This document shows positions 4,247-59,456 of a DNA stretch of 64,000 nt, one piece after another. Within the stretch, counting starts at the first letter, position 1, and each line of letters starts with the position of its first letter. A program made the position numbers and the translations under genes. The notes below the pieces were generated by a model that searched no databases, had not been told where the DNA came from, and saw nothing but the letters and a program-made list of their open reading frames with translations. The stretch spans positions 250,501-314,500 of the forward strand of contig NW_027461521.1 in NCBI RefSeq assembly GCF_024713945.1, written 5' to 3'. This DNA comes from Dermatophagoides farinae (lineage: Eukaryota; Arthropoda; Arachnida; Sarcoptiformes; Pyroglyphidae).

Positions 4247-5387
4247 TCAGATTTTCAAACCGTCTGTTCCAAGTGTGATTAATTCAATTCGGTTAATTTG
4301 TCTGTGAGGTGGCGTATTGTTAATCATGGAATTGACAAAACTCTGTTCTAAATATTCCAAATTTTTCTCAAAATTCAAATTTGCGTTTGGGTTTGCACAG
4401 TATTCGTCTATTTGCTTAACAAATTCGACTAACTGGTCGGAAGAAACGAATTTTGTGATCGTCATGCAGCCAGAACCCAAAATATAAGTTGACTTGGGGG
4501 TCCACCGATAAACCGCGAACAGCGCTTCGAACAGACAAATGTGCGAGTACAAATGTCTTTCCCAGCCGCAACCGTCGATCAAAAGCGTATCGAACGGGCC
4601 AAAAGCATCAATTATATCAATTGTGCTTTGTACAAATTGAGAAACATCTGTAATAATTACTACACGGCGCTTTCCGTCAAAAATACTATATCCTATGCAG
4701 ACAAAATTCGCGCCGTGCCAGACCGGAAGTGTTTGTATTTCTAAATTTGTTTCAGGCAAAATAAACTTGCACGATTCAACGTCTAAACTGTTGAAATAGA
4801 CATTTTCTAACGGATTAGTTAAGCTTAGCACGTCGCCATTAATAAATAAATTGAAATCACAAAGTGATATTTTTTTAACGGAAAATGTGCTCCCACTAGC
4901 ATTTATAATATAATCGTAATGTTTTTTGATCATTCCATAAGTTTCACCGTTGCAAAAAATTCGAGGCCGGTAATCGGGAAAGTAACTTTTTATAATTTGG
5001 TCTGGCTTTGATTTGGCTTTAAAATATTGTATATCGCGAATGTCATCCAGTCCCCCAATGGCATCCATATGGCTGTGTGTCAGAAGAATGTTTTTAACCT
5101 GTTTGATATTTAGTTTTCTAGCTAATTTCAGCATTGTATTTCTAAATGTTTTCCCCACATCAATTATGGAGTCTATTGTGTTCTCGCCATCGATGAAACG
5201 AATCAACAAACATATATTGAGCTTTTCAGTTTTCGTATCATCCAATGCGTCGAAGCAAATGCTATTCTAATTTATAAATATTAAACTAAACTAACCATTT
5301 TTTTTTGAAATTCAGAATGTGACTTAAGTTTGGAATGCCCATCGAAGGGCCAGACCCGAGTATGTAAACTTCAAAACTGGTTTTCAT
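4247..5387 (-). CDS. Metallo-beta-lactamase-fold hydrolase (PhnP-like), two exons
   Basis: Exon 1 is 5387-5296 and exon 2 is 5261-4247, separated by a 34-nt intron (5262-5295, GTTAGT...ATAG). The spliced protein has 368 aa. Exon 1 supplies the first strand of the fold with an LGSGPSMGIP motif, the position of LGTGTSxGVP in the family. Exon 2 continues with IDVGKTFR and the metal-binding THSHMDAIGGLDDIRD (His93, His95, Asp97). Later WHG, ITDVS and GSG segments match the remaining metal-ligand region, although the last one lacks the usual His. The GLDD variant of the motif is typical of PhnP-like and yeast C777.06c-type hydrolases rather than tRNase Z or glyoxalase II. The substrate cannot be told. 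The downstream neighbour on the plus strand converges 21 bases away. Confidence 0.8.
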
Positions 5388-5405
5388 TTAATTAGTTGAA
5401 CATCC

Positions 5406-5439
5406 TTTTACCATTAAAATTTCAACCTTAATGGTAAAA
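5406..5439. repeat. Perfect 12-bp inverted repeat (hairpin)
   Basis: TTTTACCATTAA at 5406-5417 is matched exactly by its complement at 5428-5439, with a 10-base loop. It lies just upstream of the start of the MBL-fold gene and about 100 bases past the end of the Myb-like gene, both on the minus strand. It could act in the 5' leader of the first or in 3'-end formation of the second. Confidence 0.6.
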
Positions 5440-5533
5440 TATACATTTTAATAAATAAAAGATTAATATTTCAGGGAAATTAATTTGCCACAACTCAAAA
5501 ATTAGTCTTATAATAACAAAATTTTCTTATGTG

Positions 5534-6799
5534 TTAATTCCACTGCAATCTACGCACGAATCTTTCTCTTATTTGGCCTTCGGTTTTGTTCTCTAGTATT
5601 TTGGTGTTAGAAATCTTCAGCCAATTCGAAGATCCAAAATACATTATTAAAAAAGCTAATTTTAAGTCAAAAACAATAGGCCAGCTCCCTTTATTTTTTC
5701 TGTTCCGCTTAACAGAAGCCAATATTTTTTTTATTTGCTGACTGATTGCATAGTACGAACGGTTTGGCAACAGTGCCTGTAATTTTAAAATAAAGTCATT
5801 TTCGACTTCATACCTCAAGATTTCGTTTTTTCTAATCACTGTGTCTAATTTTGCGCCGGTTTGAATCAATCTATCAAGTATTATTTGATTTTCCGCTTCG
5901 GAAAAATCTGACAAGTCAAGAGATTGAAAAAACAGATATTTCTCGTAACATTTATAAGGAAGAACGTCAAGTTTTTTTGCTAGCAGTTTCCAATTGTTAT
6001 TCACACTGTTTAAGTAGTGAAAAAATTCATTTTTTGCCAATTTTATCTCGTTGAACGCGTTTGGGTGGTAGTTATTGAGCCAGTGAATTTGAAAGTTTCT
6101 GGAGTGCTCGCTTGAATCGATTGAGCTAGCCAGCTCAGACCAAAAATTTTTCCAAAAACGGTTTGGGAACCTGTAATTACTTAGCTCCTTGTTAACTAAA
6201 CTTAACAAAAGTTTAAGGTTTTCGTTTGAATAGTTCTCTGTTATGATTTGTTTTAACAACTCTTTGTTAGTGGTAAAATCTGAATTAGACAAAGAGCTTC
6301 GTTCGCCAAGAACAGTTGTCATTGAACTGTCCTGCAGCAAGATTAAATAGTAGTGCTCACAAAGCTGGAAAAAAAACTTGTTCTTAATTTGCTCAGACAT
6401 GGATTTCGTAAAAAGCGGTTTAATTTTGTTAGTAGTTCGAAGAATGCGAATTTCTGGAGTAGCTTTGTTAACAATATGACTCTTTATTTTTTTGTTTATT
6501 TCATCTTTAATAGTTTTAAGTTCGCTGCATTCTGACTTTTTTTCGTTTATCTGTGACCAAACAACACAGTTGATTAAGTTGTTTGACAGTTCGTGCAACG
6601 CCAGCCGACAATCTTTTTGAATACGCAGTAACGAAGTTTGAAATCGATAAATTTCAACCAATTTCTCAACCAAAATTAGTTCTTTGTTGGAGTATCTAAC
6701 TAGTTTCCGTGGAAAAATACCCCGTTTAATTCGGTTATAAAACTCATATATGTAGTTCAAAGAAAAAGTAATGTGCGAAAAAACAGCATAACTCGGCAT
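5534..6799 (-). CDS. Myb/SANT-domain protein
   Basis: The first ATG in the frame is at 6799, giving 421 aa. Most of the protein is helical and charged. The C-terminal 60 residues look like a Myb/SANT repeat: a Trp (GSWPIVFDLK), an acidic/hydrophobic helix, then YFGSSNWLKIS and a final recognition-like helix in NKTEGQIRERFVRRLQW. A preceding segment (RSYYAISQQIKKIL) may be a degenerate repeat. The NKTxxQIRERFxRRLxW ending resembles the Myb repeats of SNAPC4-type snRNA activators and other DNA-binding Myb proteins, but one clear repeat is not enough to name the subunit. It is likely nuclear. Confidence 0.65.
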   Translation of the reverse strand: MPSYAVFSHITFSLNYIYEFYNRIKRGIFPRKLVRYSNKELILVEKLVEIYRFQTSLLRIQKDCRLALHELSNNLINCVVWSQINEKKSECSELKTIKDEINKKIKSHIVNKATPEIRILRTTNKIKPLFTKSMSEQIKNKFFFQLCEHYYLILLQDSSMTTVLGERSSLSNSDFTTNKELLKQIITENYSNENLKLLLSLVNKELSNYRFPNRFWKNFWSELASSIDSSEHSRNFQIHWLNNYHPNAFNEIKLAKNEFFHYLNSVNNNWKLLAKKLDVLPYKCYEKYLFFQSLDLSDFSEAENQIILDRLIQTGAKLDTVIRKNEILRYEVENDFILKLQALLPNRSYYAISQQIKKILASVKRNRKNKGSWPIVFDLKLAFLIMYFGSSNWLKISNTKILENKTEGQIRERFVRRLQWN

Positions 6800-6904
6800 T
6801 CGCTTCAAGACAAATAAAAACCAGACAGATGTTCTATCCTTTTTAACAAGGATAAAAAAATAAACTTTTCTTTTTTTAAATATTATTTGACAGTTAAATC
6901 GTAT

Positions 6905-7315
6905 ATGAACTCCAGTCTAGCTGCAACTAGTCAAATAATCACTTCAACGGCGGCAAACGTCATACCTGTTTTTTCATACGAGGAACAAGCAAACAAGCAC
7001 GCTATTATTAAAGTAACCAGTAATTCAACTTCAAGAGAAACTACTGCGTTCGAACTTTACCCATCTGAATGCAGCAAAACTCTGTATTGCGTCGTTACCC
7101 AAGCTAACAGCTCATACGAAGCTACTGAGCTTTTTGCTAAAATTTGTTGTAAGTTCCACGACAAACTCTAATCCATAGGTGCCCTGATAAAAGTTCCAGC
7201 AACTTTGTATTGTGACCTTAACCTTAATTTTTTTTCAACATCAGAAATTAAAAAAATTATTGATTCGTTTCACAAACAACTTAAGCAGGTTATTGAATCC
7301 TTTGAACCAGCTTAA
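6905..7315 (+). CDS. Small spliced protein of unknown function
   Basis: Exon 1 is 6905-7148 and exon 2 is 7179-7315, separated by a 30-nt intron (GTAAGT donor, CTCTAAT branch-like site, CATAG acceptor). Splicing in phase 1 restores a Cys codon and gives 126 aa. Without splicing, the frame stops nine codons beyond the donor. The protein mixes an alpha/beta-looking core (FELYP, TLYCVV, ALIKVP) with a C-terminal helix, and has no signal peptide or membrane segment. No family is recognised. The first in-frame ATG was taken as start. Confidence 0.6.
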
Positions 7316-7422
7316 AATTGCCGTTTTTCTTCGCTACATTTTTGTTGTTGCCATTCTTATTTGTATATTCTTATTAAAAAATAAATTACCTATTGAAAAT
7401 ATGTTTATCGATAAATTCTGTT

Positions 7423-8454: not shown

Positions 8455-8469
8455 TTAGTATTTCACATT

Positions 8470-15570: not shown

Positions 15571-16028
15571 TTATACCTCCCATTCGTCTTCCCAGTCACT
15601 CTCTTCGTTAATATAGTTTTTGTGTTTTATCTCTACTCTAGTGGGTTTTTCAGCCTCTGAAAATTTTAACAGAATGTTTTTCATCATAGTTTCGTCGATC
15701 AGTTGACCAGTACTTATTATCTGAGAGTTACTTAAAATAAACGCTTCGATTTTTTCGTAGAAACTGGGCTTAGTCAATTTAATTAAGGAAACTAAAATAA
15801 TTAAAAAACTTAAAACTTACTTCGTTCCACTGCTTTATGGTCAAGCATTGAACATAACACTTCAAATCGTTTGTTTTTCTCCTCACTACAGCAGAGTTTC
15901 ACTTGCAGCTTTTTTCATCACAAGTACCGGATGAATAACGCTAATTCAAGGACTTACGCAATCTTTTTTTGTGCTTCTAAATTCTTTTCGCACACATTTT
16001 CTTGTTTACTAATTCTGTCTTGCATCAT
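15571..16028 (-). CDS. Small three-exon protein with acidic tail, function unknown
   Basis: Exons are 16028-15958, 15885-15821 and 15791-15571. The introns are 72 nt (15886-15957) and 29 nt (15792-15820), both with GTAAGT donors and TAG acceptors. The joined frame is open for 118 aa. The protein starts with a charged helix, has a mixed central part and ends in an acidic, Trp-containing tail (EESDWEDEWEV). The 29-nt intron is well supported because the exon 3 frame has no ATG. The first intron is longer and less certain. No family is recognised; the DWEDEWEV tail is like tails that dock onto other proteins, which is only an inference. Confidence 0.55.
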
Positions 16029-16089: not shown

Positions 16090-16844
16090 ATGAAAAGCAA
16101 TTATCTGCGAGAAAAAATATGGGAAAATATGATAACTTCAGTTAATGACATTATTGAACGATACGAACAGAATAAGCAAATTTCTTACTATTTTTTAACT
16201 AAACTAGGTAGTACTCAAGACGAGTTTGGCAGAAATAATTCGTTGCTTGTTACACGTGGGTTGAAAAGAAAATTAATTCAATCTTTGTCGACTTTCTCAC
16301 AAATAATTATTGTCATTGGCTCTGAAGACATGAATTCGATTTTAGGAGTTGGCAGTGTCGACGATGATCTTTTGCAAAAATCTAGCAGTAAACACGAAGA
16401 GACTGATGGCAATTTGATCGCGGTTTTTTTTAAATGGATTTTATACAAAACCACAAATATGAACGATTTCCCCAAGACATGTCGAGACTCTTTAAAACAC
16501 GCTAACGAAAGCAGCCATATTATTTACCACTCTGTAGCAATAACAATATTGACGAAACTCGCATTTCACAACTCAAAAAAAGCCAAACTAAACTGGGTAG
16601 ATGACATTTACGTCGTTAATCCGGCGTTGGCTTTGTTTCCCATCGATTTGACAAAATTAGTAAGTTTTTTCAACGCGCAACTTTTTTATAGACGTACCAG
16701 GGATATTGTCAGTTGTATTCAAAAAGTCTTCTTTCAATAGATAACGCACCCAAATACATTGAAAACCAGCCAGATTGGTCTTTTCAGATCCCAAATTTGT
16801 CTGAATTTATAAACTTTCTCAAAAACAGCGTATCGAAAGATTAA
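16090..16844 (+). CDS. Unrecognised two-exon protein, 240 aa
   Basis: Exon 1 is 16090-16659 and exon 2 is 16692-16844. They are separated by a 32-nt phase 0 intron (GTAAGT...TATAG). Reading through the intron ends in a stop near 16740, whereas splicing continues into YQGYCQLYSKSLLSIDNAP and a further 30 residues before TAA. The protein looks alpha/beta: a helical N-terminus, a hydrophobic strand (QIIIVIGSED), a helical middle and a strand-rich WVDDIYVVNPALALFPIDL segment. I do not recognise the family. It is divergent from the neighbouring three-exon gene and they share the roughly 60-bp promoter between them. Confidence 0.6.
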
Positions 16845-17966: not shown

Positions 17967-20510
17967 ATGTTTTTATTAAAACAAAATTGCCTTGCTAAAG
18001 GTTTAAAGGACAGAACTATGGAACATGAAAAGTTTTCGAACAAAGTTTTCGTTTCACAAGTGAATGCTTTAATTGCAACGTCATCGAACTTGAATTTGAT
18101 CTTTTTAAAATCATTAGATGTTCTAATAGTCGAACAGTTTATAAACTTTGGCGATCATGACGAGGCTTTGCTTACTTATTTAATAGCAGATTGTGTTCGC
18201 ACAAACAGAGACTTTCATTCTAATGTAAAAGATATTGACTCTATAGACACAATTCAAGCTTTAACTAGCTCTCACATTATATTTTCTGCTTTGCTTTTAC
18301 TACATTTGTTATATCATGGTTTAACAACGGATTTTTTAAGTTTAAATATACATCTTTTTAACAATGTTCAGGTGATTCAACTAGCCAGCCGGGTGTTGCA
18401 GATCTATTTTTTTTCTGAAAACCTTGTACCTACTTATACTAAACTAGTCAACCTTATGAGATTTTCGACACATTTACACACTAATGAAGTACTTTTAGCT
18501 GTGTTAAAGGTAATTATTTTTAAATCGCTAAATACAAGAATTATATTATATTGTAGTCACGACAAACAAGGAACAGATAATGAAACAGAAATTGATTGTG
18601 TCAACACGGTCTCAGTTACAGAATATTATTTGGAAAATGTAGTGCAGCATATTTCAAATGTTTTCGGTTCTTTTTTATTTGATAACAGGTCATTTCTATT
18701 AGATTTGATAAATTATCATGATTATTACACAGTGGATGAGATTTTTGTTTTCTTCATCATTTATCTTCTTTACAAGAATTATGAAAGCAGCTTCAACGAA
18801 AACTTCGATGAAAATTTTCTAAACAACACAGTCAAATCGCTTCTTAAACTAGACAAATTAAAAAAGCTTACATATACATCAATAACGAAAAAACTAATTG
18901 TAGCAACAATACTAATATTAACGGTTAACAAAATTGAGCTACAGTCAAGTATAGAATTACTTCCAACAGCGTTCTGCAATTGTAATAACGAGGTACTACA
19001 ATTTTGCGTTTCTCTTTGTTTTTCTGCCTACTCGTTAAAACTAGCTAATTTGTTTAAAGAAAATGACAAACTAAGCAGGAATCTGTTCACTTCAGTTTTA
19101 AACAGTTTATTTAGCTTACAAAACGCAAGTCAAACTTACACAAAGTTTGACTTATATCCCTTTATGTTTTTTTCGTCTATTTTATACACAAGAACATATT
19201 ATTCGAACTATATTTCTATGAATAAACATTCTCAAGATACTTCAAGTACAACAGATTCGTTAATACATAATAAAAGCGACAACTATATAGTTGCTAAACT
19301 TCAAGACACTGTAAGCATTATCGTGCACATAAATTGCTCAGAAGTTGCGACGAAGATATTGGAAGATCAAACGCAAATACTTACTGTAAGCCATAGCATA
19401 TTTGACATAATAAGAAAACTAGATGGGACATTAATTCCAGGGGATGTATCGATAAATGCGCATTTAGCTCTTGAACGGTCGGCCAGCGAGCCAGGAGCTA
19501 TTTTGGAACTTTCAAACGAAGAAAAAAAATATGTAAGCTTTAACAATTTGTTCCGTTATTTTCCTAAAAGAGTGGAATTTATTATGAATGAGTTTCTGAG
19601 TATTGTAGAACAAACCAGGCAGTCAGGTATGAAGCAAAAATCGAAAAACATATTTTTGTTCGAGCAAAAGCAACGATTTCTTGGTCTGATAAATGAACTA
19701 ATGAGTAACCAATCTTCGATTTACAAGTACATGTTGCTTGAGTTTCAAAACACTCCAGCTCTGACGGTTCAAACAACAGCAACTTCTATGTCCACTTCAC
19801 TATTAGGTTTTGCTCTTCTAGAATTTTTCAAAGATACGAAGCACGTTCTCAATTCTTGTGAAGCTAATTTATTGCAGAATATTGATCAAGAATATGATTC
19901 TAAAATAAATGAACACAAAATACTTTTTTCAAATTTAGTTCTGATAGAAACGTTTAAACTTGTTATCAAACTGTTCGAAAAAGATGCTTTTCTGAAAACT
20001 TTAATTGGAAACTCCCGCACCTACGGTAAATTTATGTTAATATGCAAGACCAATGTAGTAGCTACTTGTTGTGTACTTAGTAATTCTAATGAAATGAATT
20101 TTGATAACAACAATTGTACATTGATGAAAGATTTAACTTCAGCCGCGAAAATCGTTTCTTCCTGCAGTTTAATCAATATAATTGGAATACAAGTCAATTT
20201 TTTGCATCATTTATGCATTAACTCTTTGACCAACAAACATATTACTTATCAAGAATTTTTACTTTTGTTTGACAAGGTACTTATATATTTAGAAGGCTCA
20301 GAGGTTACTTATGATCAGTTAAACCAATACGAACATTGGAAACTATTTTTCGATAATATTTCTAATTACAAAAAACAATACGAGCTTATACAACCATTAG
20401 ACACTAACGAGTTGGCAGTTGCGTGCTTATCACATTCGAAGGACTTTATACAAAAGTTAGATAGGCGCATTCAACAGCTGCAAAATACTGATTTTTCACT
20501 TATTAGTTAA
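17967..20510 (+). CDS. Large helical protein, 847 aa, unknown function
   Basis: A single ORF from ATG to TAA. The protein is Leu/Ile/Asn-rich with repeated amphipathic helices over most of its length, consistent with an alpha-solenoid. No zinc site, catalytic motif or signal peptide is visible. The best-conserved-looking part is about 520-600 (RYFPKRVEFIMNEFLSIVEQ followed by a charged helix). I considered the UFD2 core and nucleoporin-like solenoids, but cannot support any of them. The start is the first ATG; a second Met at residue 18 could also serve. Confidence 0.7.
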   Translation: MFLLKQNCLAKGLKDRTMEHEKFSNKVFVSQVNALIATSSNLNLIFLKSLDVLIVEQFINFGDHDEALLTYLIADCVRTNRDFHSNVKDIDSIDTIQALTSSHIIFSALLLLHLLYHGLTTDFLSLNIHLFNNVQVIQLASRVLQIYFFSENLVPTYTKLVNLMRFSTHLHTNEVLLAVLKVIIFKSLNTRIILYCSHDKQGTDNETEIDCVNTVSVTEYYLENVVQHISNVFGSFLFDNRSFLLDLINYHDYYTVDEIFVFFIIYLLYKNYESSFNENFDENFLNNTVKSLLKLDKLKKLTYTSITKKLIVATILILTVNKIELQSSIELLPTAFCNCNNEVLQFCVSLCFSAYSLKLANLFKENDKLSRNLFTSVLNSLFSLQNASQTYTKFDLYPFMFFSSILYTRTYYSNYISMNKHSQDTSSTTDSLIHNKSDNYIVAKLQDTVSIIVHINCSEVATKILEDQTQILTVSHSIFDIIRKLDGTLIPGDVSINAHLALERSASEPGAILELSNEEKKYVSFNNLFRYFPKRVEFIMNEFLSIVEQTRQSGMKQKSKNIFLFEQKQRFLGLINELMSNQSSIYKYMLLEFQNTPALTVQTTATSMSTSLLGFALLEFFKDTKHVLNSCEANLLQNIDQEYDSKINEHKILFSNLVLIETFKLVIKLFEKDAFLKTLIGNSRTYGKFMLICKTNVVATCCVLSNSNEMNFDNNNCTLMKDLTSAAKIVSSCSLINIIGIQVNFLHHLCINSLTNKHITYQEFLLLFDKVLIYLEGSEVTYDQLNQYEHWKLFFDNISNYKKQYELIQPLDTNELAVACLSHSKDFIQKLDRRIQQLQNTDFSLIS

Positions 20511-20566
20511 TAATAAATATTTTATTAAATTATTGCGTTAAAGCTAAATAAGAGAATGCGGCATTC

Positions 20567-22314: not shown

Positions 22315-23322
22315 ATGACAGAAATTTGGACTGAGCGATAGTAAGTTAGTTACCGTTACAGTTGTAATAGTAGACCTTCGAGTATCGAGAATTTACGAGG
22401 TCAAAAAAATGCAAAAAGGATACTAATGTCAACGCTTGCAAACAATAGTTGTGTGAATTTTTTATTTTTCGGTCCCCCAGGGTCTGGAAAAACTTCAGCC
22501 GCCTTAGCTCTAGCAAAATCCATGTTTGGAAATGATTGGAAAAAAAACACTTTAGAGTTGAATGCGTCAGATGATCGTGGAATTTCTACTGTACGTACAA
22601 GAATAAAGCCTTGGAGCCAGTACGTCTCCAAACAAGATGAGAATTCTGACGAAACTCAGCGAATGTCTAAACTGATCATACTAGATGAAGCGGATATGAT
22701 GACATTCGACGCTCAAGCTGCGTTGCGCAGAGTGATTGAAGATTACAATGGCAAAAGCAGTTTCATAATAATTTGTAACTACTTAAATAAAATAATCGAA
22801 CCTATTATTTCGAGATGTGTTGTATGTAAGTTTAACCCAATATCGCTAACTGATCATATTTCGCACTTAAACAGCATTTGCGCTGCTGAAGGCGTAAATG
22901 TTGACTCAGATAAATTAAAATTAATTGTTACCTTAACTAATGGAGACATAAGAGCTTCGATGAATTTGTTACAGTGCGCACATGCAATTTATGGAAACAG
23001 TTTAACGACAGACGAAATTTACTCGCTCTCAAGCTTTCCAAATCCGGGCCTAGTTACGACACTATACAAAAAAATAACTAGTGGAGATCACAGTCACAAC
23101 GAGCTGTTTTCGGAAATTGTTAAAACTGGATGTAACTTAGTATATTTGATTGAAAATCTGACTGAAGAAATAATTAAAGACGATTCTTTCACGGATTCAG
23201 TTAAATCAAACCTGGTTCTGAAAGGTTTCGACGCAATTAGCGCAATATGTAGGTCTTTAGAGTCTAATTTTCAATTTTATAATTTTCTATTAGACGTTAG
23301 TAATGTATGTTCAAAACGATAA
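22315..23322 (+). CDS. RFC4: Replication factor C small subunit (human RFC4 / yeast Rfc2-like)
   Basis: Exon 1 is only 26 nt (22315-22340) and encodes MTEIWTER plus two bases of a Tyr codon. A 30-nt intron (22341-22370, GTAAGT...AATAG) follows, and exon 2 runs 22371-23322. The splice rebuilds the family's WTExYRP start, followed by the LRGQ box and Walker A GPPGSGKT. Also present are ELNASDDRG, Walker B ILDEADMM, the sensor region ICNYLNKIIEPI and the SRC arginine-finger motif. The spliced protein has 325 aa, normal for the family. The NASDDRG and NYLxxIIEP wording is closest to RFC4/Rfc2. It belongs to the pentameric clamp loader that places PCNA. An ORF-only call would start 37 codons too late at 22426. 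Confidence 0.9.
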
Positions 23323-23387: not shown

Positions 23388-24196
23388 CTAAATCATTCGT
23401 TGAACCAATTCGTTGATGTATTCTTCACGGTTACCCCAGTCACCACTACGGAATTCAGAAAATCCGTGTCTTTTACAGACGAAACCGCCTTTTGGGCATC
23501 GCAACTTGAAAGTCCACAAGAAGTTGTTGACTTCCTTGAAAGCTTTACCGCTAGTGTAGATTTGGTAAACCATGTCTTCGACACAGGTTACACCTAAGTG
23601 GCCAAGTTTTTTGGTGATGATTTCATTGTTAGAAATTCTAATTCTGGACTGTTTTCCTGCCATACCATCACGAACGTAACCTCGCTTGTATATTAACTTT
23701 CTAATGGTTTCGACGGAAGGGTATCCACATGCGACGAAAGGTTCGATGTGCTTCAACATTTGAAGAGTGGCTTTGTTAATTCTAACAAAAGCGGCGTTGT
23801 GAATTTGGAAAAGTCTGAAGAGCTGGAAGATTTTTCTGACACGTGGGCAAAGCTTGTTAACACCCTTGATTCTAACGACTAACATAACTTTAGGTTCAGC
23901 GGGTTTGTAGAAGGATTGTGAAGCATAAGCGCTTTGTTTTTTTGCTTCGATTTCGGCAGCTTCTTTAGAATAGAGATCCTCGTAGTGGACAAGTTTCTCA
24001 GCAGCTTCCTTCATCAGCAAAGCTTGTTTTTCGGCTTGGGCCTTCTTTGCTTCGCATTTTTCATGGTATAACTCAGTATTTCTCTTTAATTTTTTTTCTT
24101 GCTCTGCCGACTTAGGTTGGAATGCAAGAGATGCTTCGTTTACTAAATACAAATCCTAAAAAGAATATAAATGTTATAAAGAGTACTTACCGCCAT
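23388..24196 (-). CDS. RPL7: Ribosomal protein uL30 (RPL7)
   Basis: Exon 1 holds just ATG GCG (24196-24191). A 35-nt intron (24156-24190, GTAAGT...TTTAG) follows, and exon 2 runs 24155-23388. The 257-aa product has the eukaryotic L7 basic helical N-terminus (about 20-80), then VVRIKGVNKLCPRVRKIFQL, the KRGYVRDG region, and KLGHLGVTCVEDMVYQIYT. Length and motif order match cytosolic uL30, a 60S protein. The intron directly after the second codon is a location often seen in ribosomal protein genes of compact genomes. The gene is divergent from RPSA with about 100 bases between them. Confidence 0.95.
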
Positions 24197-24302: not shown

Positions 24303-25099
24303 ATGAGTTATATCACTAAAGCAGAGAGTGACGACTTTATTCGTCGTGCAATAATATGCAAGGTATGTTTTTAGACGGCAGTGATTTTTAGGCCCACATC
24401 GGTAACACAGTTACCCACAACAAAATGAAGCCATACATTGCTTCGTCTCTTAAGCATGGACAAACTTTATTGAACCTCAGAAAAACATTTGAAAACGTAA
24501 TGTTTGCTGCTAGAATTATCAACGGTGCCAGCGACCCTAAATCGGTCTGCGTTGTTGGAAGCCAGCAATACGCTAAGAGACCAATTCTTAAGTACTGTCA
24601 GTACACCGACGCCACTCCCGCACCACACCGATGGATTCCTGGTACCCTCACTAATCAAAATACTTTACGTTTCATGGAACCTAGAATCCTCATAGTTTGC
24701 GATGCATCTGCCGACAGACAAGCAATCATTGAAGCTTACTACTCAAATATTGTCGTCATTGCTTTGTGTAATTCTAACGACGACTTGAGTTGCATTCACT
24801 TAGCAATTCCTGTCAACACTAAGAGTCCAGAAACCATCGGACTTATTTTGTGGGCACTCGCGCAAGAAGTTCTTAAGATCAGAAGCACTCTTCCTAGAGG
24901 TAAACAATGGGATGTCATTCCAGACAGCTTCTTCCACAGAGAAGTTGAAGAAGTCAGACTTTCCGATGATGGCGTAATTGCATCAGAAATCGAAGACGAA
25001 GGTGAAGAAGAAATGAACGCCGCTGCTGAATCAAACAACTGGAACCGTGTCAATGATTGGAACATGTACAACAATATGATTCCCAGTCACATAGCCTAA
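24303..25099 (+). CDS. RPSA: Ribosomal protein uS2 (RPSA / p40)
   Basis: Exon 1 (24303-24362) encodes the first 20 residues. A 29-nt phase 0 intron (24363-24391, GTATGT...TTTAG) separates it from exon 2 (24392-25099). The join creates CKAHIGNTVTHNKMKPYI, where the family has the AHxG segment. LNLRKTFENVMFAAR, WIPGTLTNQ, EPRILIVCDASADRQ, IALCNSNDDL and the IPVNTKSPETIGLILW stretch follow as in eukaryotic uS2. The C-terminus is acidic with a short Asn/Trp tail, shorter than metazoan laminin-receptor extensions. The product (255 aa) is a 40S component. Without exon 1 the ORF would seem to start at 24425. Confidence 0.95.
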
Positions 25100-27050: not shown

Positions 27051-27165
27051 GATTTGTTTTGAATAAATTTATACGTATTATTTAAGATTGATATTTTAAC
27101 TTATAATATTTTTTTCTTTTTTTTCTGCAAAATGAAATAAGCGCCAAAAGTAAAATTATTTTATT

Positions 27166-29264: not shown

Positions 29265-30345
29265 ATGGACCCTATTAGAAAAATAGAAGTAAAATCAACG
29301 AGTCCTGTATTTTGTGCCGATTTTTCTGACGATCCTAAATTACTATATATAGGTAATGCAGAAGGTAAACTTTACACGTAAGTATTAAACATTAGCTATA
29401 AACTGTTGGCTCCACATAGATTATTTTATAATGTAACAGTAGGAAATATTGAAAACCTTGTTGATTATACATCTCTTTAGTTATTTGATTGATGAACTAT
29501 CGCTTAGAGCTACGAAAATTAATGAACTCGATTGGAAAACCGCAATTTATTCAGTTGCAGCCAGAGGTGACTACATCGCTACTGGTGACAGTCAAGGCGA
29601 CATAGCTGTTATATGTGCAACCACTGGTCAAAAAATTTCTAAAACTAACGCGACCATTGCTAGGGTATTTACTGTTCAATGGGTCCAAAACAATGTTTTA
29701 TTGTATGGATGTGATAATGGGGTTATAAACTTTTTTGACATACGACTATGCAAAAATTTACCTCCTTTAATCGCGTTGAATGACGACATCGTCAACTTTG
29801 TGCTGTTGGATCAGAGCAAAATGTATGTGGCAGCTGGAAATCAGGTTTACAAGTACCAACTTGTATATCCAAACCAAAAGCTTTTATATGAAAGCGAAGA
29901 ATACGATTTTGAAATTTATTCTATGTGTCTTATAAACCAAGGAAAAAATTTAGTTTACGCGACGTCTAAAGGTTTGTATTTTTCTGGCACAAAAGAAAAT
30001 TCATTGGAATTAAGAGGTTTATATCCTTTAGAAAACGGAGCGTCGGTTATTTGTGGCTACGACGATCGATTTTTTTTTTATAGTGATTGTAGCGAAAAAA
30101 TTCAGGTTGGAATTTTCGAAGACAATAAAATATCGCATTATGATACTTTCACTTCTATTCCATCTTGTGAGGAAACAAACATCGATTGTTTGAAATTAAA
30201 CAGAACAAAGAACTGGCTTCTTGCTTTTGACCAAGCCTCTTGCAAAGCGTATCTTTGCGACTTATCGTTGCTTTACAAATTTTTTCAGCCTGAACTCAAA
30301 GATTCATTAACAGTTAAAGACGACTTTCTCGATGAAATGGTTTAA
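29265..30345 (+). CDS. WD40-repeat protein (WDR55/Jip5-like?)
   Basis: Exon 1 is 29265-29377 and exon 2 is 29481-30345. They are joined over a 103-nt intron with GTAAGT donor and CTTTAG acceptor, the longest intron resolved here. The product has 325 aa. It begins PVFCADFSDDPKLLYIGNAEGKLYT, the start of a WD40 propeller, and continues with SVAARGDYIATGDSQGDIAVI, WVQNNVLLYGCDNGVINFFDIR and later weaker blades. The ATGDSQGxI wording and total length fit WDR55/Jip5, a ribosome-biogenesis propeller, but WD40 proteins are hard to separate by eye. The end lies 5 bases from the converging APC10 gene. Confidence 0.7.
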
Positions 30346-30350: not shown

Positions 30351-30972
30351 TTATTTTTTCGCAAAGATTTTGATACCGCGAACATGACTGTCTTGGCCGT
30401 TCTGCTCGTTTGCAAGTATAATAATTTGTAGACAGCTACCTTTTATTTTTGACTCAGCATCGCAGTAGTTGTAAAGTTCTTTTTTTTCAATTTTACTATC
30501 AATAAAAACTCCTTCTAAACTACGGTACAAATACGGTTTGGCTGTGGTTGTATTCATTTCTTCTAAATTTTTTGCGTAGTTTATCGCTGTTTTGACAAAT
30601 TCAAATGAGCTAATCTTCAATTCCATCCAGCCTTCCGGACATTCCAAATTGTATTTACCGACACTCTATAATTAAATCGCCTCAATAACTTACAGTCATA
30701 AAATAACGGTTTTCGCCAATCCTGACCAAAATTTTTGTTGGTGTATAAGTAGCATCCATTTTTAACGATAAATTTAGCTCAACCTTCGTAAATTCCATTC
30801 TTTCGGTGAAAGTAGCCGTAATTACGTGCGGACTCCACGAAAACGTCTGCCAAAAAGTGCTAAAATTGTCGTCAATTAAATTTTTGGCAGATGTGTCAAT
30901 TTTAACTGAAGAAACATCTATTAACGCTTTATGCGTTATATCTATCTGATCTAAGCATTCATTTTTAATCAT
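30351..30972 (-). CDS. APC10: Anaphase-promoting complex subunit 10 (Doc1)
   Basis: Exon 1 is 30972-30694 and exon 2 is 30665-30351. A 28-nt phase 0 intron (30666-30693, GTAAGT...TATAG) separates them. The 197-aa product is a single DOC domain. Exon 1 has VSSVKIDTSAKNLIDDN, FWQTFSWSPHVITATF, MDATYTPTKILVRIG and YFMT; exon 2 has CPEGWMELKI and ILANEQNGQDSHVRGIKIF. NxQNGxDxHxRxIKI is the hallmark of APC10. The subunit helps bring substrates with D-boxes to the APC/C in mitosis. Two ORFs of under 100 codons in different frames are one gene. Confidence 0.93.
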
Positions 30973-32248: not shown

Positions 32249-34589
32249 TTATTTCGGGTCATTTTTCTCTAACAGTAGAGAACAAATATTGCTGAAGTAA
32301 ATGTAGGCCGGCAAAAAGTCATTGAAAGTTTGAGGTTTCAAAACTGCGTGAATTTTCAAACATATACTGACGAATGATTTAACTCGTTTTATAATTTGTA
32401 TCGGATTACAAAACAACTTGTGTTTCAACAAAAAGTCGAAGCAATTGTTTTTTTGTAAGTCACATAAAAATAGGGAACGGATAAACATCCCTACTTCAGT
32501 AGTATATTCTTCTTGACCGAAAAGATCGTAACTTATAGATTTAACTTCTTTGATATTAATTTTCTTTTCGCTGTTTATAGGCACGTTGAAATTTGGACGG
32601 TTATTAAATAACCATTTATTTTCATCACTAATATCTGGATTATTCTTTTTTAGATTTTCCAGTTCTTGTTTGATTTCATTAGTTTTTTCATCAGTGTTGA
32701 AAAGGGTATCATAAATACAGCAATTTAATAATTCGTTTTGGAAATCAGCTATGTAATTAACGAGCGATATAAAAGCTAATAAATCAGGATTGGGAAAAGC
32801 AGTAACAAGATCTTTTCTTATATCGTCACTCAGTAACGGAACCAAACAAGCAAGACGGGATATTAGTTTAATGTAATTTTCTAATCTATTAATAACAATT
32901 TCAGGAACCGAAGAAGATTTAGTTATATAATTGTAATTTGAAACCAGCATGTCTGTTTCTTTTTGTGTTAATTGAGAAATACTGTTGGATAGACTGACAA
33001 GACAAACTTCTAATTTGTTGCCATGAATGAGATCGCTTTTTAACAAGGTAACGTATATTAAGATCGGTTTAATGAATTCGGATTGAATGATCTCGTTGTT
33101 CAAACAAGGGAACAATGGAGAAGGGTTTCCGTTTTGTTCTATGAAGCCTAAAACGTGTAAATACAAACTAGAAATAGTTATAAAACAAACTCGGAGTGGA
33201 AAAATATCGTCTTTACGTTTTGAGTTTTTCAAAAGCGACAATACTAAAACCTCTGCTGTAGTTGATAAATCTTTTGAATCAAAGGTTGTAGTATAAGGTA
33301 AATATTTATTTTCTTGGTTATTGGTGTGATTTAATGAACAAATTTCGTTTATGTTATTCTTATTCACATTATTGTAAATGGAACATCCGAAAGGATTTCT
33401 AAATACACATCCACTAAATTTATATTCTAAGGTAAAATGGTTTGTTAGTAGCCCAAGTTGCATTAACCGTGCTGGTATTAAAGCTTTGATTACTTCGTAC
33501 CATTCTCTGATGATTATTGGCTTAGATATGTGTTCATTGAGAATATTGGTAGCAAGCGGTTGAAGGCTGTCAGGAGTAATTATCAAATAATATAACGCTT
33601 CGTACAGATTGTTTGGAAGTTGTTTACCTATTGTGTGTGGAAGCACGTTAGGTATGTCTTTTTCCGGCAAATTCGCTATAATTAATTTGGCTGAGTCGTC
33701 AAAAAACATCTTAGTTCTTTCAAATTTACTCACCATTTTAACCGTGTTCAAGTAATTTATGTAGCTTGGTTCGTTGATACAATTAATTATTTTATTAAAA
33801 GAAAGTGTGTTTAGCGCTGTAATCGCAGCACTGAATGTATTAGCGGGTCCGAATGCGTCTATTACGGGATGCGTTTGTAAATATTCACCTCCACTTAACA
33901 AAGTAGCTTGTCTTAAATTTAACCGGAGGAGATTTGTGTAGCTTGATACTTTCTCAAATTCTAAAAGATCATAAGTATCGTTAGAAATATTATAATCTAT
34001 AATTATTTCATGATAATCATAGATTAAACATTCTGGGGACGAGTAAATATAAACGTTTTCGTAAAATTGTTTATAATGATGAGCTTGCGAATTGAAATCA
34101 TAAGGACATCCGATAGACAAAATCTGCAATTTTTCAAGTTCCAAAGTGAGTTTTGATTTATATCTTGATGTAGTTTTTTTAAGCAAGTGATTTATCATTG
34201 GTAGCAATTTTTCAGGACTAAACTCGTCACTGGACTGCGAATAATATTTCAACCAAAATTCTTCAACATCTTTCTTAGGAAATTTATCGAAATAAGACTC
34301 GACTCCGGGTTTCAACCCGCTGAACATAAATATAACATGGAAAGAATTATTTTTGGCTACTGAAGTTAATTCTTCTAACAATTTAGGTATTCGAAAATAA
34401 ATAGTACCTGCTAGAACTTCCAGCGGATACTTGATCAATTGAGTCTCTAGCCACCATTGGGCATCAATTAAAATTATTGAATTACTAAGTCAGACTGATT
34501 GTAGTTGAAACATACCTTAATGTCGAAAAATTTGTAGTAGTTGTTAATCGATTATCAACAATGTAGCTAAATAAACCTCGAATGTGCAT
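32249..34589 (-). CDS. Mkt1-like protein with inactive XPG nuclease domain
   Basis: Exon 1 (34589-34516) encodes MHIRGLFSYIVDNRLTTTT and a few more residues. A 31-nt intron (34485-34515, GTATGT...CTTAG) follows, and exon 2 runs 34484-32249. The product has 769 aa. The spliced N-terminus has the MxxRGLxxY start and the IILIDAQWWLE strand of XPG/FEN-type folds, and further on FHVIFMFSGLKPG. The usual catalytic FxFDG reads FMFSG and other acidic residues are not evident, so it is probably not a nuclease. Large size plus this degenerate XPG domain fits Mkt1 (with FAM120-type proteins as a second possibility), a post-transcriptional regulator that works with Pbp1/ataxin-2. An ORF starting at TTG would miss the first domain strand. 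Confidence 0.7.
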
Positions 34590-37610: not shown

Positions 37611-40600
37611 ATGCAAGATTTTTTCGATGGTTCAGTAAGTTGAAAATAACGAAATGCTTTTAGCTGTATTTTTTTAAGTTACTGGATAAACTTAATGATT
37701 CAAAATCTTTTGCCGCTAAAAATAATGAACAAGCGGATAAATTAACGCAAGGAAGTAAAAAAAGTGATATAGAACTCGTAAATTCTAAAAATATTAACGT
37801 GATTAATTCTATTTATGGTCCAAAAAATACTATTGATGGTGAATCAAAAAAAAAAAAACTTCGTGTTCAGTCGCGAAAAGAAGCAATTCAAATTAAATCA
37901 GATGAGTGGGGAGAAGTTGACAAAAAAACTAATTATAAAAAAAAAAATCAATGTGAATTATCTAGTAAAAAGTTGACCAGCTTAGATTTGATAAATGAAA
38001 ATAACAGTGAAACTTTGTTGGATGGAGAGAAATGTGAAGATGATTATTTATTAAATTTGTTTAATGAAGCGGTTGACTCATACAAAAATAAAATGAATTT
38101 GCAAATAAGTTCAGACGTGACAGATTTTCATTATAATCATTTGTTAGCAAGTCAAAATCACAAGAATTTTTTAGATTCGATTTATAATCCACGTTCAGCT
38201 TGGGTTATTACTAGTTCAAAAAATTTTTTTTCATTATTAGAAAGAAGGGCTGTTCAATCTAATCGTGTTGATAAAACTAACTATTTACAAGAGTTGTTTG
38301 GAAATTCAACCACTACAAATGACAATTATTTAATGTCAATAATTCGAAAAATGATTGGAAATTGTCTGAATTGTGTTATTATGGAACCAACATATCACAC
38401 AAAATTTAAAAATTTAGAATCCATCTCTTTACGAACTCAGAGCGTTATTTACGAATTGTTGCATAATTATTCAATATTTCGAGACGTATGCTTTGCGTAT
38501 GGTAAAAGTGATAAACGGTTTATTGAAAATGAAGCGTCTATTATTGATGCTATGAAAAATTCGTTGGGAAGTAGTCTTGAAGATTTTCCAAAAATCAATT
38601 ATTCGATTTTGTCAGAGTTGCCTTTTTCAATAGCAAACAAAAAAAGGCTTTATTACAAAAATTTTGTTAACAACGAGTTTATGAGAAAAAAAAAGTTTAT
38701 GACAGGTAATGTCGCTTCTTCTTATCTGATTGAAGATTATGATTTATTTTACCGTGACGCTAACAGTACATATCGTCCTCTTAAATCTTTAAATCAAAGC
38801 AATGCTGACCAAGATTTCTCAACTGATTATGAGTCGAATACATCGCGTGCATCAGGCTTTTCCACGCCAGTAGCTTGGAAATTTGTTGGAATTGTTCCAA
38901 CTAATGAAATTGCACATTTAAATAGAATGATGCGAGGAGAGTTTAGAACAGGACTTTATTACGCTTATTTCCACGAAGTTTATCAAATAGATCTTTTTGA
39001 AGAATCCAATTATAATCTCTATAAAAAAAAAATTGAAGAGATATTAGATCATGAAAAAAATGAGGAAAAAACAGATATCATATCCGGGTGCAAGGAAAAC
39101 TATTTGTATGGACAGTGGAATATAGAATTTCCTAGTACAGATTTGATATTTGATTCAGAAAATAAAGTTAAAAAGAAATCAGTGTCAGATTTTACTACGG
39201 TAGATTCGTTAACTTTACGTCATTACTGTGACATTGCTGTCGTAGAACATTCTTATGAAACGCCTGTCGTGTTATTGCCTGGAATGGGTGTGAAATTGCA
39301 ATTATATTATAAAGGAACTCCTCCTTTCTTGCAAAAAAATGAAACTGCATTTGCTCATGTACATAATCCTACTCAGCGCTACGGTAAAACAAATAGTGTT
39401 TTAGAGAATATCTCGTTGGAAGAAAATCATGAAAAATCTAGTTCGATTTTATCCCAAATCGAAGAAGCTGATAAGAAAAAGCCTTTTCCACCTAAAGGTT
39501 ATTATACTAGACCTCACTATAAAAAGAAACCAGCGACAGCCACAACTAATTTTGGAGATTTTATTAATTACAAAAATATCAGGTACAATGAAAATCCTAA
39601 ATTATTTAATTCCACTTACAAACTAGCATCAGATACTGGAGTTTTGATTTATCACTCTTCTCTTGGTAATGCAGTGATTTCAGCTTTTCCTAAAGATAAA
39701 GCTACGCCTTTCTCAACTCCTATCGAATACTTAACTTTACGAAAAAAACTTCTTGATGACCTTACACAAAGAAAGCAAGAAACAAAAAAATACAATTATC
39801 AAAATAAAGAATACGCGGATGGTTTAAATTTATATGATTATAGACTCACTAATTTCTTACTGGTTCGATCCTCTTCTATCTCTTCAAAAAACGTTGAGGT
39901 AAAATGTTCGCTTCGTCCACTATATCTCCCTGAACTTAACTCTTTTTCACCTGTAACTTCAGTTTATTTACTCGGACAGGTTGAGCCAATCATTGAAATT
40001 CCGGGTCCAGAGGGGAAAAAAATTGGGGAATGGAAAAAACAATGGGTAGAATTTTATTCATTAAGGTTATGTCTATTGGGTATCAGAAAGTTTAGTTTAA
40101 ATAAGGCGAAATGTTTTAAATTTTTTTCAAACTGGTTTGAAATGCAAACTATACAAAAAATTCTCGCTCCGTTGATGCAAAATAAAGATAACGATAGTTT
40201 TATCAATAATTACAACCAAAAACCTAAAATCCCTTGTAATGATATTATGATCAAAGTGGCAAGCGAAGAAAGTATATATAAAATCATTAAACCGGAACAA
40301 ATTTGTGCGATTGTATCAGCTCAATATTACTCGCAAAAGCTGTCTAAAATGGGTATAAAATATATCAGGTCATGCGATCGTTTGGCTATATCTAGATTGA
40401 TGCTTCAATCACATGAAACAATTAGTGATGCACATTGGTGTAGAATTTACGCAATGTGGACCGAATACAGAAAAAAACTGGTTTCTTTGAATTTCAAATA
40501 TAATCCATCTAAATATGAATTTCAGCTATTTAGTTTACCATTTCCTTATCGATCACTTGAAGCAGCTTTTAACATTAAAAAGAGTATCATTGCTCGCTTT

Positions 40601-44291: not shown

Positions 44292-44525
44292 ATATAACAG
44301 TGAATTTAGTTTTATTTTACAGTGCTTACATAAATTTTTACTTTATTTCTCAGCCCTATAATAAATCAACGCGTCTCCTCTTTGAAATTTTGTGGCGTTA
44401 TATTTATTCTTGTTTAAATTAAATTTTTACTTCTAAGATAGAGAGATTATACACACAGCGTGCGAATGTATTTTTTTTGAAGAATAATTTATAATTTCAA
44501 ATTGATCTTACTGTAATTTGTAAAG

Positions 44526-45653
44526 ATGGAGGATGATATAAATGCTATAGTAATTGATAACGGATCGGGTATGGTTAAAGCCGGTCCAGCAGGTGTGGAT
44601 GCTCCGAGTGTAGTTTTTCCATCAATAGTTGGTCGTCCTAAACACAATGGTATAATGGTAGGATTAGAGAAAAAAGACTGGTATGTCGGAGATGAAGCTC
44701 AATCAAAACGTGGGGTGCTCACGTTAAAGTACGCAATTGCTCATGGTATCATAACTAACTGGGATGATATGGAAAAAATATGGAGTCATACTTTTTACCA
44801 TGAATTGCGCGTTCACCCGGACGAGCATCCTGTTTTATTAACAGAAGCCCCATTGAATCCAAAGGTAAATCGCGAGAAAATGATACAAATGATGTTTGAG
44901 GTGTTTTCAGTACCTCAAACTTTTGTCAGCATTCAAGCCGTTCTTTCTTTATATTCGTCTGGACGAACTACTGGTATTGTGCTTGACAGTGGTGACGGAG
45001 TATCGCATACAGTTCCTATCTACGAAGGTTTCGCTTTGCCACATGCAATCATGCGTATGAATTTAGCAGGAAGAGACTTGACTGAATACTTAGCTCTGTT
45101 GCTCCAGTTACGGGGCTACCCGTTTACAACTTCCGCTGAAAAAGAAATTGTGCGTGATATCAAGGAGAAACACTGTTACGTAGCTTTGAACTACGAAGAA
45201 GAACTTCAGCGAGCGGATAACAACGAAGAGATCGAAGAAGCTTACGAATTGCCAGATGGACAAATAATCACCATTGGTTCTGAAAGGTTCCAAACAGCAG
45301 AAGCGTTGTTCCAACCTGGACTTATTGGACATGAAGTTTACGGTATTCACGACACAACTTTCAACAGTATTATGAACTGTGATGTGGACATCAGAAAAGA
45401 TTTATACAGCAATATTGTTTTGTCTGGAGGAAGTACCTTATACCCCGGTATCAGTGACAGATTGGATAAAGATATATCTAAACTCGCTCCAAGTACCATC
45501 GGAATCAAAGTTGTTGCACCAACGGAACGAAAGTTTTCTGTTTGGATCGGAGGAAGCATTCTTGCATCTCTGTCAACATTCCAAGACATGTGGATCTCAT
45601 ACCATGAATACGCCGAATACGGAAACTCAATTATTCATAAAAAGTGTATGTAA
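44526..45653 (+). CDS. ACT: Actin
   Basis: 375 aa, full length and colinear with canonical actin: [15 protein letters not shown], the DNase loop region [60 protein letters not shown], and [19 protein letters not shown]. The methylated-His position is retained (AIAHGI), and the tail ends HKKCM rather than the usual RKCF. There are many private substitutions, such as KAGPAG for KAGFAG and KDWYVGDE. The fit to nucleotide-binding motifs implies a functional protein. It is divergent enough to be fast-evolving but is clearly actin rather than Arp1-3. Confidence 0.97.
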
Positions 45654-51482: not shown

Positions 51483-51503
51483 ATTAAACGTTACCGACTG
51501 AAG

Positions 51504-56038: not shown

Positions 56039-56345
56039 GTCTTACAGCTGCATAGGGAAAATTTGCCATAATGTTTCGATTAAAGTTATAAATCTTGTCT
56101 GAAACATTCAAAGAATCGTCCCTTAAGCCATATATAATGTCGTTTAGTTGTTCTTTTTCTACTAGATTTATAATTTGTTTTTACTTACTCCAATCATTAG
56201 AGATTTTGTTTGAAACTAGAATATCTGCAAATTAACTAAAGTTTTTAAGCAACGTACCGAGTTTTCCCGTCCTCTTCTTTAGAAAATTGATTGCCGTCGA
56301 TGTTTCATGCAAAAGTAATATGGTAAGTAAACAACAAGATTTCAT
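56025..56345 (-). CDS. Hidden three-exon small secreted protein
   Basis: Exons are 56345-56258, 56224-56189 and 56161-56025. The introns are 33 nt (56225-56257, GTACGT...GCAG) and 27 nt (56162-56188, GTAAGT...CTAG), both phase 1. All joins keep one open frame of 86 codons ending in TAA. The first exon encodes a signal peptide (MKSCCLLTILLLHETSTA). The mature part is about 65 aa, with charged and Asn-rich helices ending AAVRPRFD. No exon exceeds 50 codons, so standard ORF searches miss it. Three consistent joins plus a signal peptide make chance unlikely. No family is recognised. Confidence 0.6.
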
Positions 56346-56438
56346 TTTCTAACACACTTTTTAACTTATAATAACTAAAATCAACAGAAGCGATTGCAGT
56401 ATTATATAAAATCCGATTAATTTATGTGTTGGATATGT

Positions 56439-57287: not shown

Positions 57288-57431
57288 ACATTATTTTTTG
57301 GTGCATGATTAGAATAGCCTAAATTTTAATATGCATCAAAAAAAATCTCGTATTGCATGTATTTTTGACCAATGATTTCATCATGACACATTTGCACGAC
57401 GAGCGTGCGAACTATATTTATTATTAGTGAA

Positions 57432-58031: not shown

Positions 58032-58199
58032 AAATATGTCGACCAATAGTTAAATAAATTTTATGCTTGAACTGCAGCTTCAAAGCATAAATAGTAAAAT
58101 AAATAATTAGAACAGCTTTTCGCTTGAAAAACCTATAAATCCCAGTATAATACAGTTTTTATGTTTCTTAGAAAATCTATTTACAATTTGGTAATAATT

Positions 58200-58214
58200 T
58201 GCGCACCGTGCGCA
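58200..58214. promoter_or_regulatory. 15-bp GC-rich palindrome upstream of CCCH gene
   Basis: TGCGCAC and GTGCGCA flank one central base at 58200-58214, 51 bases before the ATG at 58265, in an otherwise A/T-rich gap. It is a candidate transcription-factor site because of position and symmetry. Confidence 0.35.
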
Positions 58215-58264
58215 TTCTATTGCCAACACGCGCTATATGCGTTAGTAGTGTAAGATATTGTAGC

Positions 58265-59456
58265 ATGGCATCTAAATCAAATAAAACATCAATAAACATA
58301 GTTTTAACCACTGAAGAGCTTTACAAATTCCGCTCAATGCTATGTTTGAAACAAGCTGAAGGTCAATGTTATCAACCTGATTGGTGTGCTCATTCACATT
58401 GTTTAACCTGGCAAAGACGGAACCCAATGAAACATGTATATCTGTAAGTATAAAGTTTATTATCATATTACGCAGTTCATCACTGTGGATAAATGATCAA
58501 ACAACAAATATCTTATTAGGCCCGTGCTCTGCCCAGATATTGAATTTCATCGTAAACACAATCGTATGCACTTAATTAGAAAGTGCGATAAAGGACGTAA
58601 CTGTTATTATGCACATTCAAAAGAGGAACAATTATATCATCCAATGGTGTATAAAGCTCGCATGTGTAAATCTCACGAATCTTGTTATAGACGATTTTGT
58701 CCTTTTGCACATAACTTAGATGAAGTAAGAAATGCGTTATCGCTTGATTCATATTTGAAATTGGTTCAGGATTATTGGAAAAATAAACAATTAAACTCTA
58801 ATCAAGAAGAAAAAAGCATTTCAGGTAATACCCAGTTAACAGCTGCTTTAGAAGCTGTACATAAACAAAATCAACAAATACAGCAAATACTGAACAAACG
58901 CAACAATAAATCATATTTCTTCTCTCATAAAGCGAATCAAGGATCTGAAGCAGTTTTCAAAACTCCACAGTCAACACGATCTGTAAAAACAAATCACAAT
59001 GATAACGAAACACCATATACTGATAAAACATATTCTACTGAAGAATCAGCTTTGGTCGAACAAAAAGACAAACCGACAAACGATACATTCGAAAAAAACA
59101 ACGATAGCTATAATCTACTTTGCAGCAATTTGTTGAACAATGTGTCTATTAAAAATGAAGTACCTCACAACAAGTATTATCTAGATACGTCTTATTTTTC
59201 AGAGACTCAATCAAAAAATACACCATACAACAAATCGTTTTCTAAAAATGATTTCAGCAACTATAAAAGCGAAGGTGTTGAATTAATAAATAATAATTCA
59301 GACTATCTTTTAAACAAAAAATTTGTTTATAATATGAAGCATGACGGACACGATTTCAAAGATTTTTGGGTAGATATAGACAAACTGATATCGGGTGAAG
59401 ATGACTTAACTATTGAACTAACTAGAGCGAAAACAATTTTGTTAAATCTACAATAG
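58265..59456 (+). CDS. CCCH zinc-finger protein, two exons
   Basis: Exon 1 is 58265-58443 and exon 2 is 58520-59456, joined over a 76-nt intron (GTAAGT...ATTAG, phase 2). The product has 371 aa. Three CCCH-type fingers are seen: C27-x7-C35-x5-C41-x3-H45 (GQCYQPDWCAHSH) in exon 1, a second in exon 2 with CDKGRNCYYAH, and a third, CKSHESCYRRFCPFAH. The fingers are close together, as in RNA-binding tandem CCCH proteins of plants and protists. The remaining 230 residues are Asn/Lys/Gln-rich and likely disordered. It probably binds mRNA. An ATG-less first ORF and a GTG-started second ORF are explained by the intron. Confidence 0.85.

Follow-up and report, generated by a model that had tools for sequence, protein, structure and literature searches.

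The window, a 64,000-nt stretch of the Dermatophagoides farinae assembly GCF_024713945.1 (contig NW_027461521.1, here C18, positions 250501-314500), contains a class of introns of only 27-35 nt that is confirmed as real, with two weak members among the twelve listed below. Computation shows a GT-AG class with a length peak at 29 nt, the donor GTAAGTT and a TAG acceptor preceded by a T-rich stretch. Judged from the sequence, these are very probably genuine, very short spliceosomal introns of the major (U2) type that belong to an uncharacterised apicomplexan present in or on the sequenced mites.

The class of 27-35 nt introns

A preliminary description of the window had listed twelve such introns, and their positions are borne out. 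All twelve intervals start with GT and end with AG on the strand of the gene, at the coordinates and lengths given below. When 240 nt on each side of every junction were translated in three phases, the spliced junction was open in at least one phase and reading through the intron led to a stop or a frame shift in all twelve cases. In addition, a gene finder with codon scores from long open reading frames (ORFs) and a flat intron-length prior of 12-300 nt was applied to 198.5 kb, i.e., the window, a further 107.5 kb of C18 and 27 kb of sister contigs. An earlier run of the finder, with a stiffer intron penalty, covered 171.5 kb. The twelve introns are the following.

5262..5295, minus strand: 34-nt intron GTTAGT..TAG in a metallo-beta-lactamase (MBL)-fold gene (exons 5387-5296 and 5261-4247); missed by the finder
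7149..7178, plus strand: 30-nt intron GTAAGT..TAG; GT-AG ends and open frame; exact in both finder runs
15792..15820, minus strand: 29-nt intron GTAAGT..TAG; exact in the flat-length run, missed in the stiffer-penalty run
16660..16691, plus strand: 32-nt intron GTAAGT..TAG; exact in the flat-length run, acceptor placed 9 nt downstream in the stiffer-penalty run
22341..22370, plus strand: 30-nt intron in a replication factor C (RFC) small subunit gene (exons 22315-22340 and 22371-23322); missed by the finder
24156..24190, minus strand: 35-nt intron after codon 2 of the gene for ribosomal protein uL30 (exons 24196-24191 and 24155-23388); exact in both finder runs
24363..24391, plus strand: 29-nt intron GTATGT..TAG in the gene for ribosomal protein uS2 (exons 24303-24362 and 24392-25099); missed by the finder
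30666..30693, minus strand: 28-nt intron GTAAGT..TAG; 80 codons open on each side once spliced; exact in both finder runs
34485..34515, minus strand: 31-nt intron GTATGT..TAG in an MKT1-like gene (exons 34589-34516 and 34484-32249); exact in both finder runs
37635..37663, plus strand: 29-nt intron GTAAGT..TAG after codon 8 of a TAF1-like gene; exact in both finder runs
56225..56257, minus strand: 33-nt putative intron GTACGT..CAG in a short gene; open frame alone; missed by the finder
56162..56188, minus strand: 27-nt putative intron GTAAGT..TAG in the same short gene, in a phase consistent with the intron at 56225; missed by the finder

Each intron had been said to restore a known motif or an open frame. 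The open frame is found in all twelve, and homology across the junction in RFC, uS2 and, weakly, the MBL-fold gene, while for the pair at 56162 and 56225 the open frame is all there is. The joined RFC frame (MTEIWTER^YRPSSIENLRGQ, with ^ at the junction) aligns with RFC subunits in PDB from residue 4 over the junction (E 1.9e-56), and the joined uS2 frame (DFIRRAIICK^AHIGNT) aligns with uS2 entries from residue 9 over the junction (E 4.6e-55). The MBL-fold frame (MKTSF..ILGSGPSMGIP..KKK^CICFDA) yields a weak PDB alignment from residue 8 over the junction, with three sequences at E 1.3e-4 to 2.6e-4. For uL30 (MA^DLYL), homology stops short of the junction because the downstream exon matches uL30 only from its residue 19. 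The MKT1-like gene has an MKT1_C Pfam domain 3' of its intron; for its N-terminal junction, neither a Pfam match nor a useful PDB match was obtained. The TAF1-like gene (MQDFFDGS^LYFFKLL) carries the Pfam domain DUF3591 and a bromodomain. Outside the window, tiny introns occur on three of the small contigs described below. The PSMA6 gene on C21 has three, of 29, 31 and 27 nt, at C21:20111-20139, 20253-20283 and 20522-20548, and its spliced product matches one distinct PDB sequence under E 1e-50, a proteasome alpha chain at 1.5e-52. PSMA6 thereby joins RFC, uS2 and, weakly, the MBL fold as a conserved protein restored by excision. An SmE-like gene on C16 (27 nt) and a CCT gene on C20 (31 nt) each have one intron, both found by eye.

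The flat-length run recovered seven of the twelve introns exactly (7149, 15792, 16660, 24156, 30666, 34485 and 37635). Missed were those at 5262, 22341, 24363, 56162 and 56225, three of which have homology across the junction (22341 in RFC, 24363 in uS2 and, weakly, 5262 in the MBL fold). Overall, the run predicted 47 introns in the 198.5 kb, including 31 of 27-35 nt, of which the remaining 24 lie outside the window. Sixty decoys with permuted donors gave a mean of 28.7 introns, and only 2.6 on average (maximum 13) were 27-35 nt long. When at most one donor mismatch and a length of 20-40 nt were required, the real donor gave 29 introns against a decoy mean of 1.9 (maximum 5). Two decoys, scoring 12 and 13, start with GT and could be picking up the introns of the real donor. 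The stiffer-penalty run, which took an alternative acceptor for the intron at 16660, recovered five of the twelve exactly and placed 18 of its 28 introns at 20-40 nt, compared with 0-6 in 25 decoys. Two calls of the weighted finder are doubtful, namely 63216-63507 (292 nt) and 5267-5557 (291 nt), the latter replacing the intron at 5262-5295. The reality of this short GT-AG class supports the earlier warning that annotation from ORFs alone is unreliable.

The anatomy of the class was tabulated on 33 introns, i.e., 28 finder introns of 27-35 nt plus the five listed introns that the finder did not recover; three finder introns with unlike donors (GTTTGT, GTTACT and GTCAGC) were left out. One intron on C16 and one on C20 extend the set to 35. 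Lengths run from 27 to 35 nt with a mode of 29 nt, and 29 of the 35 measure 27-31 nt. Modulo 3, the lengths of the 33 introns are distributed 12/11/10, so the tiny introns are not in-frame insertions. As had been described, the donor is mostly GTAAGT (24 of 33, followed by GTATGT with 5 of 33) and the acceptor TAG (32 of 33). GT..AG ends in 33 of 33 result from selection, and the conservation at donor +3 to +6 and acceptor -3 is also partly selected because the finder scored those positions. Among positions that the finder did not score, T occupies -4 to -6 in 24, 24 and 26 of 35 introns, and A occupies -10 to -13 in 17, 19, 19 and 16 of 35.

Owner of the contig and its U1 small nuclear RNA

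From its gene content, the window most likely lies on a passenger contig, owned by an apicomplexan that was included in the mite assembly. The assembly consists of ten contigs of 3.3-9.2 Mb (C1-C10), eleven of 90-645 kb (C11-C21, 3,593,788 bp in sum) and one of 14,266 bp; for the D. farinae mitochondrion, an earlier record of 14,266 bp and the assembly paper's own of 14,320 bp are reported (PMC11074847). Fourteen proteasome loci are situated on C1-C10, and a further 11 on C11-C21. The small contigs also hold eight CCT-family loci, one of them split in two, and 11 of the 28 LSm-domain matches. All four AP2 matches (three above the cut-off) and the single alveolin (IMCp) match, on C14, fall on C11-C21, with none on C1-C10. 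The top PDB entries for uL30 and uS2 are what we take to be Toxoplasma and Plasmodium proteins, with a ciliate entry ranking lower, and the best entry for PSMA6 is presumably a Plasmodium proteasome alpha chain. The apicomplexan affinity is derived from these three proteins. The preliminary description had treated "this genome" as a single genome, which does not hold for a passenger contig within a dust-mite assembly.

Gregarine 18S has been met in a sample of another mite, Caparinia (PMC6321676), which makes a gregarine a natural candidate for the passenger. CCCTAAA repeats stand at the starts of C14 and C16, and the start of C11 mixes CCTAA with CCCTAAA in degraded form. As clear telomere-like repeats were present at two of the 20 contig ends read (220 of 250 bases per end), most of C11-C21 look unlike whole chromosomes. 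The assembly paper states that microbial DNA was removed, and the words 'apicomplexa', 'protozoa' and 'intron' do not occur in its main text (PMC11074847). Among the literature matches listed, no title or abstract opening reported an apicomplexan in the D. farinae assembly. The gene content indicates that the chromosome-level reference of D. farinae, a major allergen source, carries about 3.6 Mb of apicomplexan sequence, and genes predicted on the passenger contigs may be filed as mite genes.

Spliceosome parts on the passenger contigs comprise the 11 LSm-domain matches and a U1 small nuclear RNA (snRNA). The latter was identified with Rfam on C18 outside the window (C18:201944-202099, minus strand; 72.8 bits, cut-off 69.5). 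It is one of five U1 genes found in the whole assembly, the other four being on C7 (41 of 578 candidates scored). The passenger U1 starts with AAACUUACCUG and the four mite copies with AUACUUACCUG; its 5' end reads AAACTTACCTG, compared with ATACTTACCTG in all four C7 (mite) copies found. Because ACUUAC pairs with GUAAGU, U1 nucleotide 2 faces intron position +7. Unlike the four C7 copies, the C18 U1 has an A at nucleotide 2, which pairs with T at +7, and its pairing with the donor thus extends through +7. T occurs at +7, a position that the gene finder did not score, in 26 of the 35 tiny introns versus 49 of 133 other GTA[AT]GT sites in the C18 sequence examined (Fisher p 1e-4), and this background may include introns outside the set. 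The match between the U1 change and donor +7 is the strongest new mechanistic point, and a literature search on the string AAACUUACC gave nothing related by title. If true, U1 would here covary naturally with a class of 27-35 nt introns that extends across the genome. This covariation is testable with a built-in control, as the host and passenger U1 occur in one assembly and differ opposite +7.

Splicing of these introns may proceed in a manner consistent with their anatomy. U1 would recognise the extended donor, U2 would use one of the adenines enriched some 10-13 nt from the 3' end, and TAG would be chosen after the T-rich stretch. The whole intron would then fit between two small nuclear ribonucleoprotein (snRNP) footprints. 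The narrow size range could represent a floor set by spliceosome geometry, which deletion pressure in a compact genome may have brought within reach.

Alternative explanations and known tiny-intron systems

A number of observations weigh against short spliceosomal introns of an apicomplexan. The introns are known here from genomic sequence, reading frames and homology, and those at 56162 and 56225 are plausible on the basis of mutually consistent open frames alone, the signal-peptide-like start of their gene having been judged by eye. Without donor weights, the finder predicted 24 GT-AG introns compared with 14-22 for six other end pairs; at 20-40 nt, it found 11 compared with 2-5. The unweighted evidence therefore resides in length and donor, with little weight coming from the number of introns. 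Searches for the other snRNAs placed U2 on C6 alone and none on C11-C21 (46 of 3769 candidates scored), and U6 on C1-C10 alone and none on C11-C21 (48 of 7910 candidates scored). On the exon side the match to U1 is not followed, as G occurs at -1 in 23% of the 35 introns. Ten branch-motif patterns were counted in the 33 introns, and none clearly beats the control with reversed interiors: YTRAY occurs in 12 versus 16, TTAA in 9 versus 17, CTGA in 3 versus 1, and the loose yNAAY branch proposed earlier, in 18 versus 19, is not enriched. The best PDB match of RFC is not apicomplexan but presumably a yeast entry, and actin is uninformative on the organism as many actins score alike. Finally, frame breaks other than introns occur in a proteasome alpha (PSMA) gene (C13:40601-42400) and a CCT gene (C20:129201-131300). 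These are probably assembly indels, and such indels therefore exist here.

Such breaks lend themselves to a reading in which all tiny introns come from assembly errors that shift the frame of otherwise intact genes and are spanned by chance GT..AG pairs. We regard this as very improbable: the decoys see the same errors, yet average 2.6 introns in the 27-35 nt range where the real donor gives 31, the excised pieces measure 27-35 nt rather than 1 nt, and homology to RFC, uS2 and PSMA6 picks up again at the junction. Similarly little credence can be given to the introns being the dust mite's own. The record is filed with the mite assembly, and GTAAGT..TAG stretches of like size are found on C1 too, as a raw pattern only; however, C11-C21 hold a second proteasome, CCT and LSm set, AP2, alveolin and a different U1, and two ribosomal proteins and one proteasome protein best match entries that we take to be apicomplexan. 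The raw pattern GTAAGT-N(10-30)-TAG counts 1437 forward and 1628 reverse occurrences in the whole assembly (35189 and 27358 for the backward pattern), which is uninformative either way because host and passenger are mixed.

It is hardly credible at all that the segments are internal eliminated sequences (IESs) of a ciliate-like relative, cut from DNA instead of RNA. Short IESs of Paramecium are of similar size, but IESs are bounded by TA, whereas the segments here have GT..AG ends in 33 of 33 (by selection) and an extended donor that matches U1. The closest proteins are, moreover, presumably apicomplexan and not ciliate entries. Somewhat more room is left for an owner among the alveolates outside Apicomplexa, which would leave the intron biology unchanged and which we consider unlikely. 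The affinity comes from three proteins only, and AP2 and alveolins are found in other alveolates too. On the other hand, the entries that we take to be from Plasmodium and Toxoplasma outrank the ciliate one for uL30 and uS2, and AP2 and alveolin are both present.

When the introns are taken as apicomplexan and spliceosomal, as we prefer, the nearest known counterpart is that of the marine gregarine Porospora cf. gigantea. Its introns are reported to have a median length of 28 [27-30] bp, with a 25-30 bp class making up 71-72% (PMC9250747). Both organisms combine apicomplexan affinity with gene-dense sequence (84% coding in Porospora, gene models over 84% of 171.5 kb here) and a tight range of intron lengths, namely 25-30 bp around a mode of 28 in Porospora and 27-35 nt around a mode of 29 in the present set, although the tail towards longer lengths is more extended here. 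In Porospora, a strongly conserved A is described 6 bp before the acceptor (PMC9250747), whereas only 4 of the 35 tiny introns here have A at -6, compared with 10 at -7 and 15 at -8. The GC content also differs, with 54% there versus about 32% here. The term 'snRNA' is absent from the main text of the Porospora paper (PMC9250747). Babesia microti, another apicomplexan with a compact genome and a narrow class of very short introns, has shorter ones of reportedly 18-21 nt (PMC5082761). The introns of the ciliate Stentor coeruleus, given as 15-16 nt, are likewise AT-rich and tiny, without a strong branch consensus, and are accompanied by the organism's own snRNAs. Their length and branch-A position are nearly fixed, however, and the Stentor U1 reportedly keeps ACUUACCU (PMC9505925). 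Mikrocytids are likewise reduced parasites whose introns vary little in size, but are rhizarian and have shorter introns, described as 16-17 nt, with conserved sequence (PMC10245619). The introns in the window had been placed close to the lower size limit for spliceosomal introns; they are indeed short, but the limit lies lower, in view of the sizes reported for Babesia microti, Stentor and mikrocytids. Tiny introns are thus already known in Apicomplexa, to which a further narrow class without the gregarine's fixed A near the acceptor can be added. What is new is the organism, the U1 match and, possibly, a very small genome.

Genome size and further features of the window

The 171.5 kb of C18 examined contain 112 gene models, which take up 143.8 kb (84%), and 27 of the 112 contain an intron. 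When the gene density of C18 is scaled to 3.59 Mb, about 2,350 genes are obtained. Full sets consist of 14 proteasome, 8 CCT and about 14 Sm/LSm members. C11-C21 hold 11, 8 and 11 of these, i.e., 30 of 36, in which some LSm or CCT-family matches may be other members. Taken from these three families alone, this completeness suggests a total genome of 3.6-4.5 Mb. We see an even chance that C11-C21 represent most of the nuclear genome of an undescribed apicomplexan of dust mites, with about 3.6-4.5 Mb and roughly 2,350-2,900 genes, in which a U to A change at U1 nucleotide 2 covaries with a shift of +7 towards T. Should this genome be close to complete, its size would fall below that of the Babesia microti genome, which was called the smallest in Apicomplexa as of 2016 with around 6.5 Mb and 3,567 genes (PMC5082761).

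Besides the tiny introns, a few longer ones of 72-103 nt had been mentioned for the window, and the gene finder predicted introns of 72, 76 and 103 nt. These are listed below together with the actin gene.

15886..15957, minus strand: 72-nt intron GTAAGT..TAG, in one gene model with the intron at 15792-15820; gene finder
29378..29480, plus strand: 103-nt intron GTAAGT..TAG, ahead of a WD40-type frame (WD40-type Pfam matches within 29443-30342); both finder runs
58444..58519, plus strand: 76-nt intron GTAAGT..TAG; gene finder
44517..45653, plus strand: actin gene, a single open frame that requires no intron; PF00022 at E 8.3e-133 over residues 6-378 of 378, with actins as PDB matches

Four longer introns contain AAACAT or ATACAT ending 8-16 nt from the 3' end, namely C18:10206-10429, C18:34663-34717, C18:119536-119584 and the 103-nt intron at 29378-29480 of the window. 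This is perhaps a branch-region motif. An IscU/NifU-like scaffold gene is located at 27154-27621 on the plus strand (PF01592, E 2e-44), and its presence suggests that an iron-sulphur pathway may have been retained.

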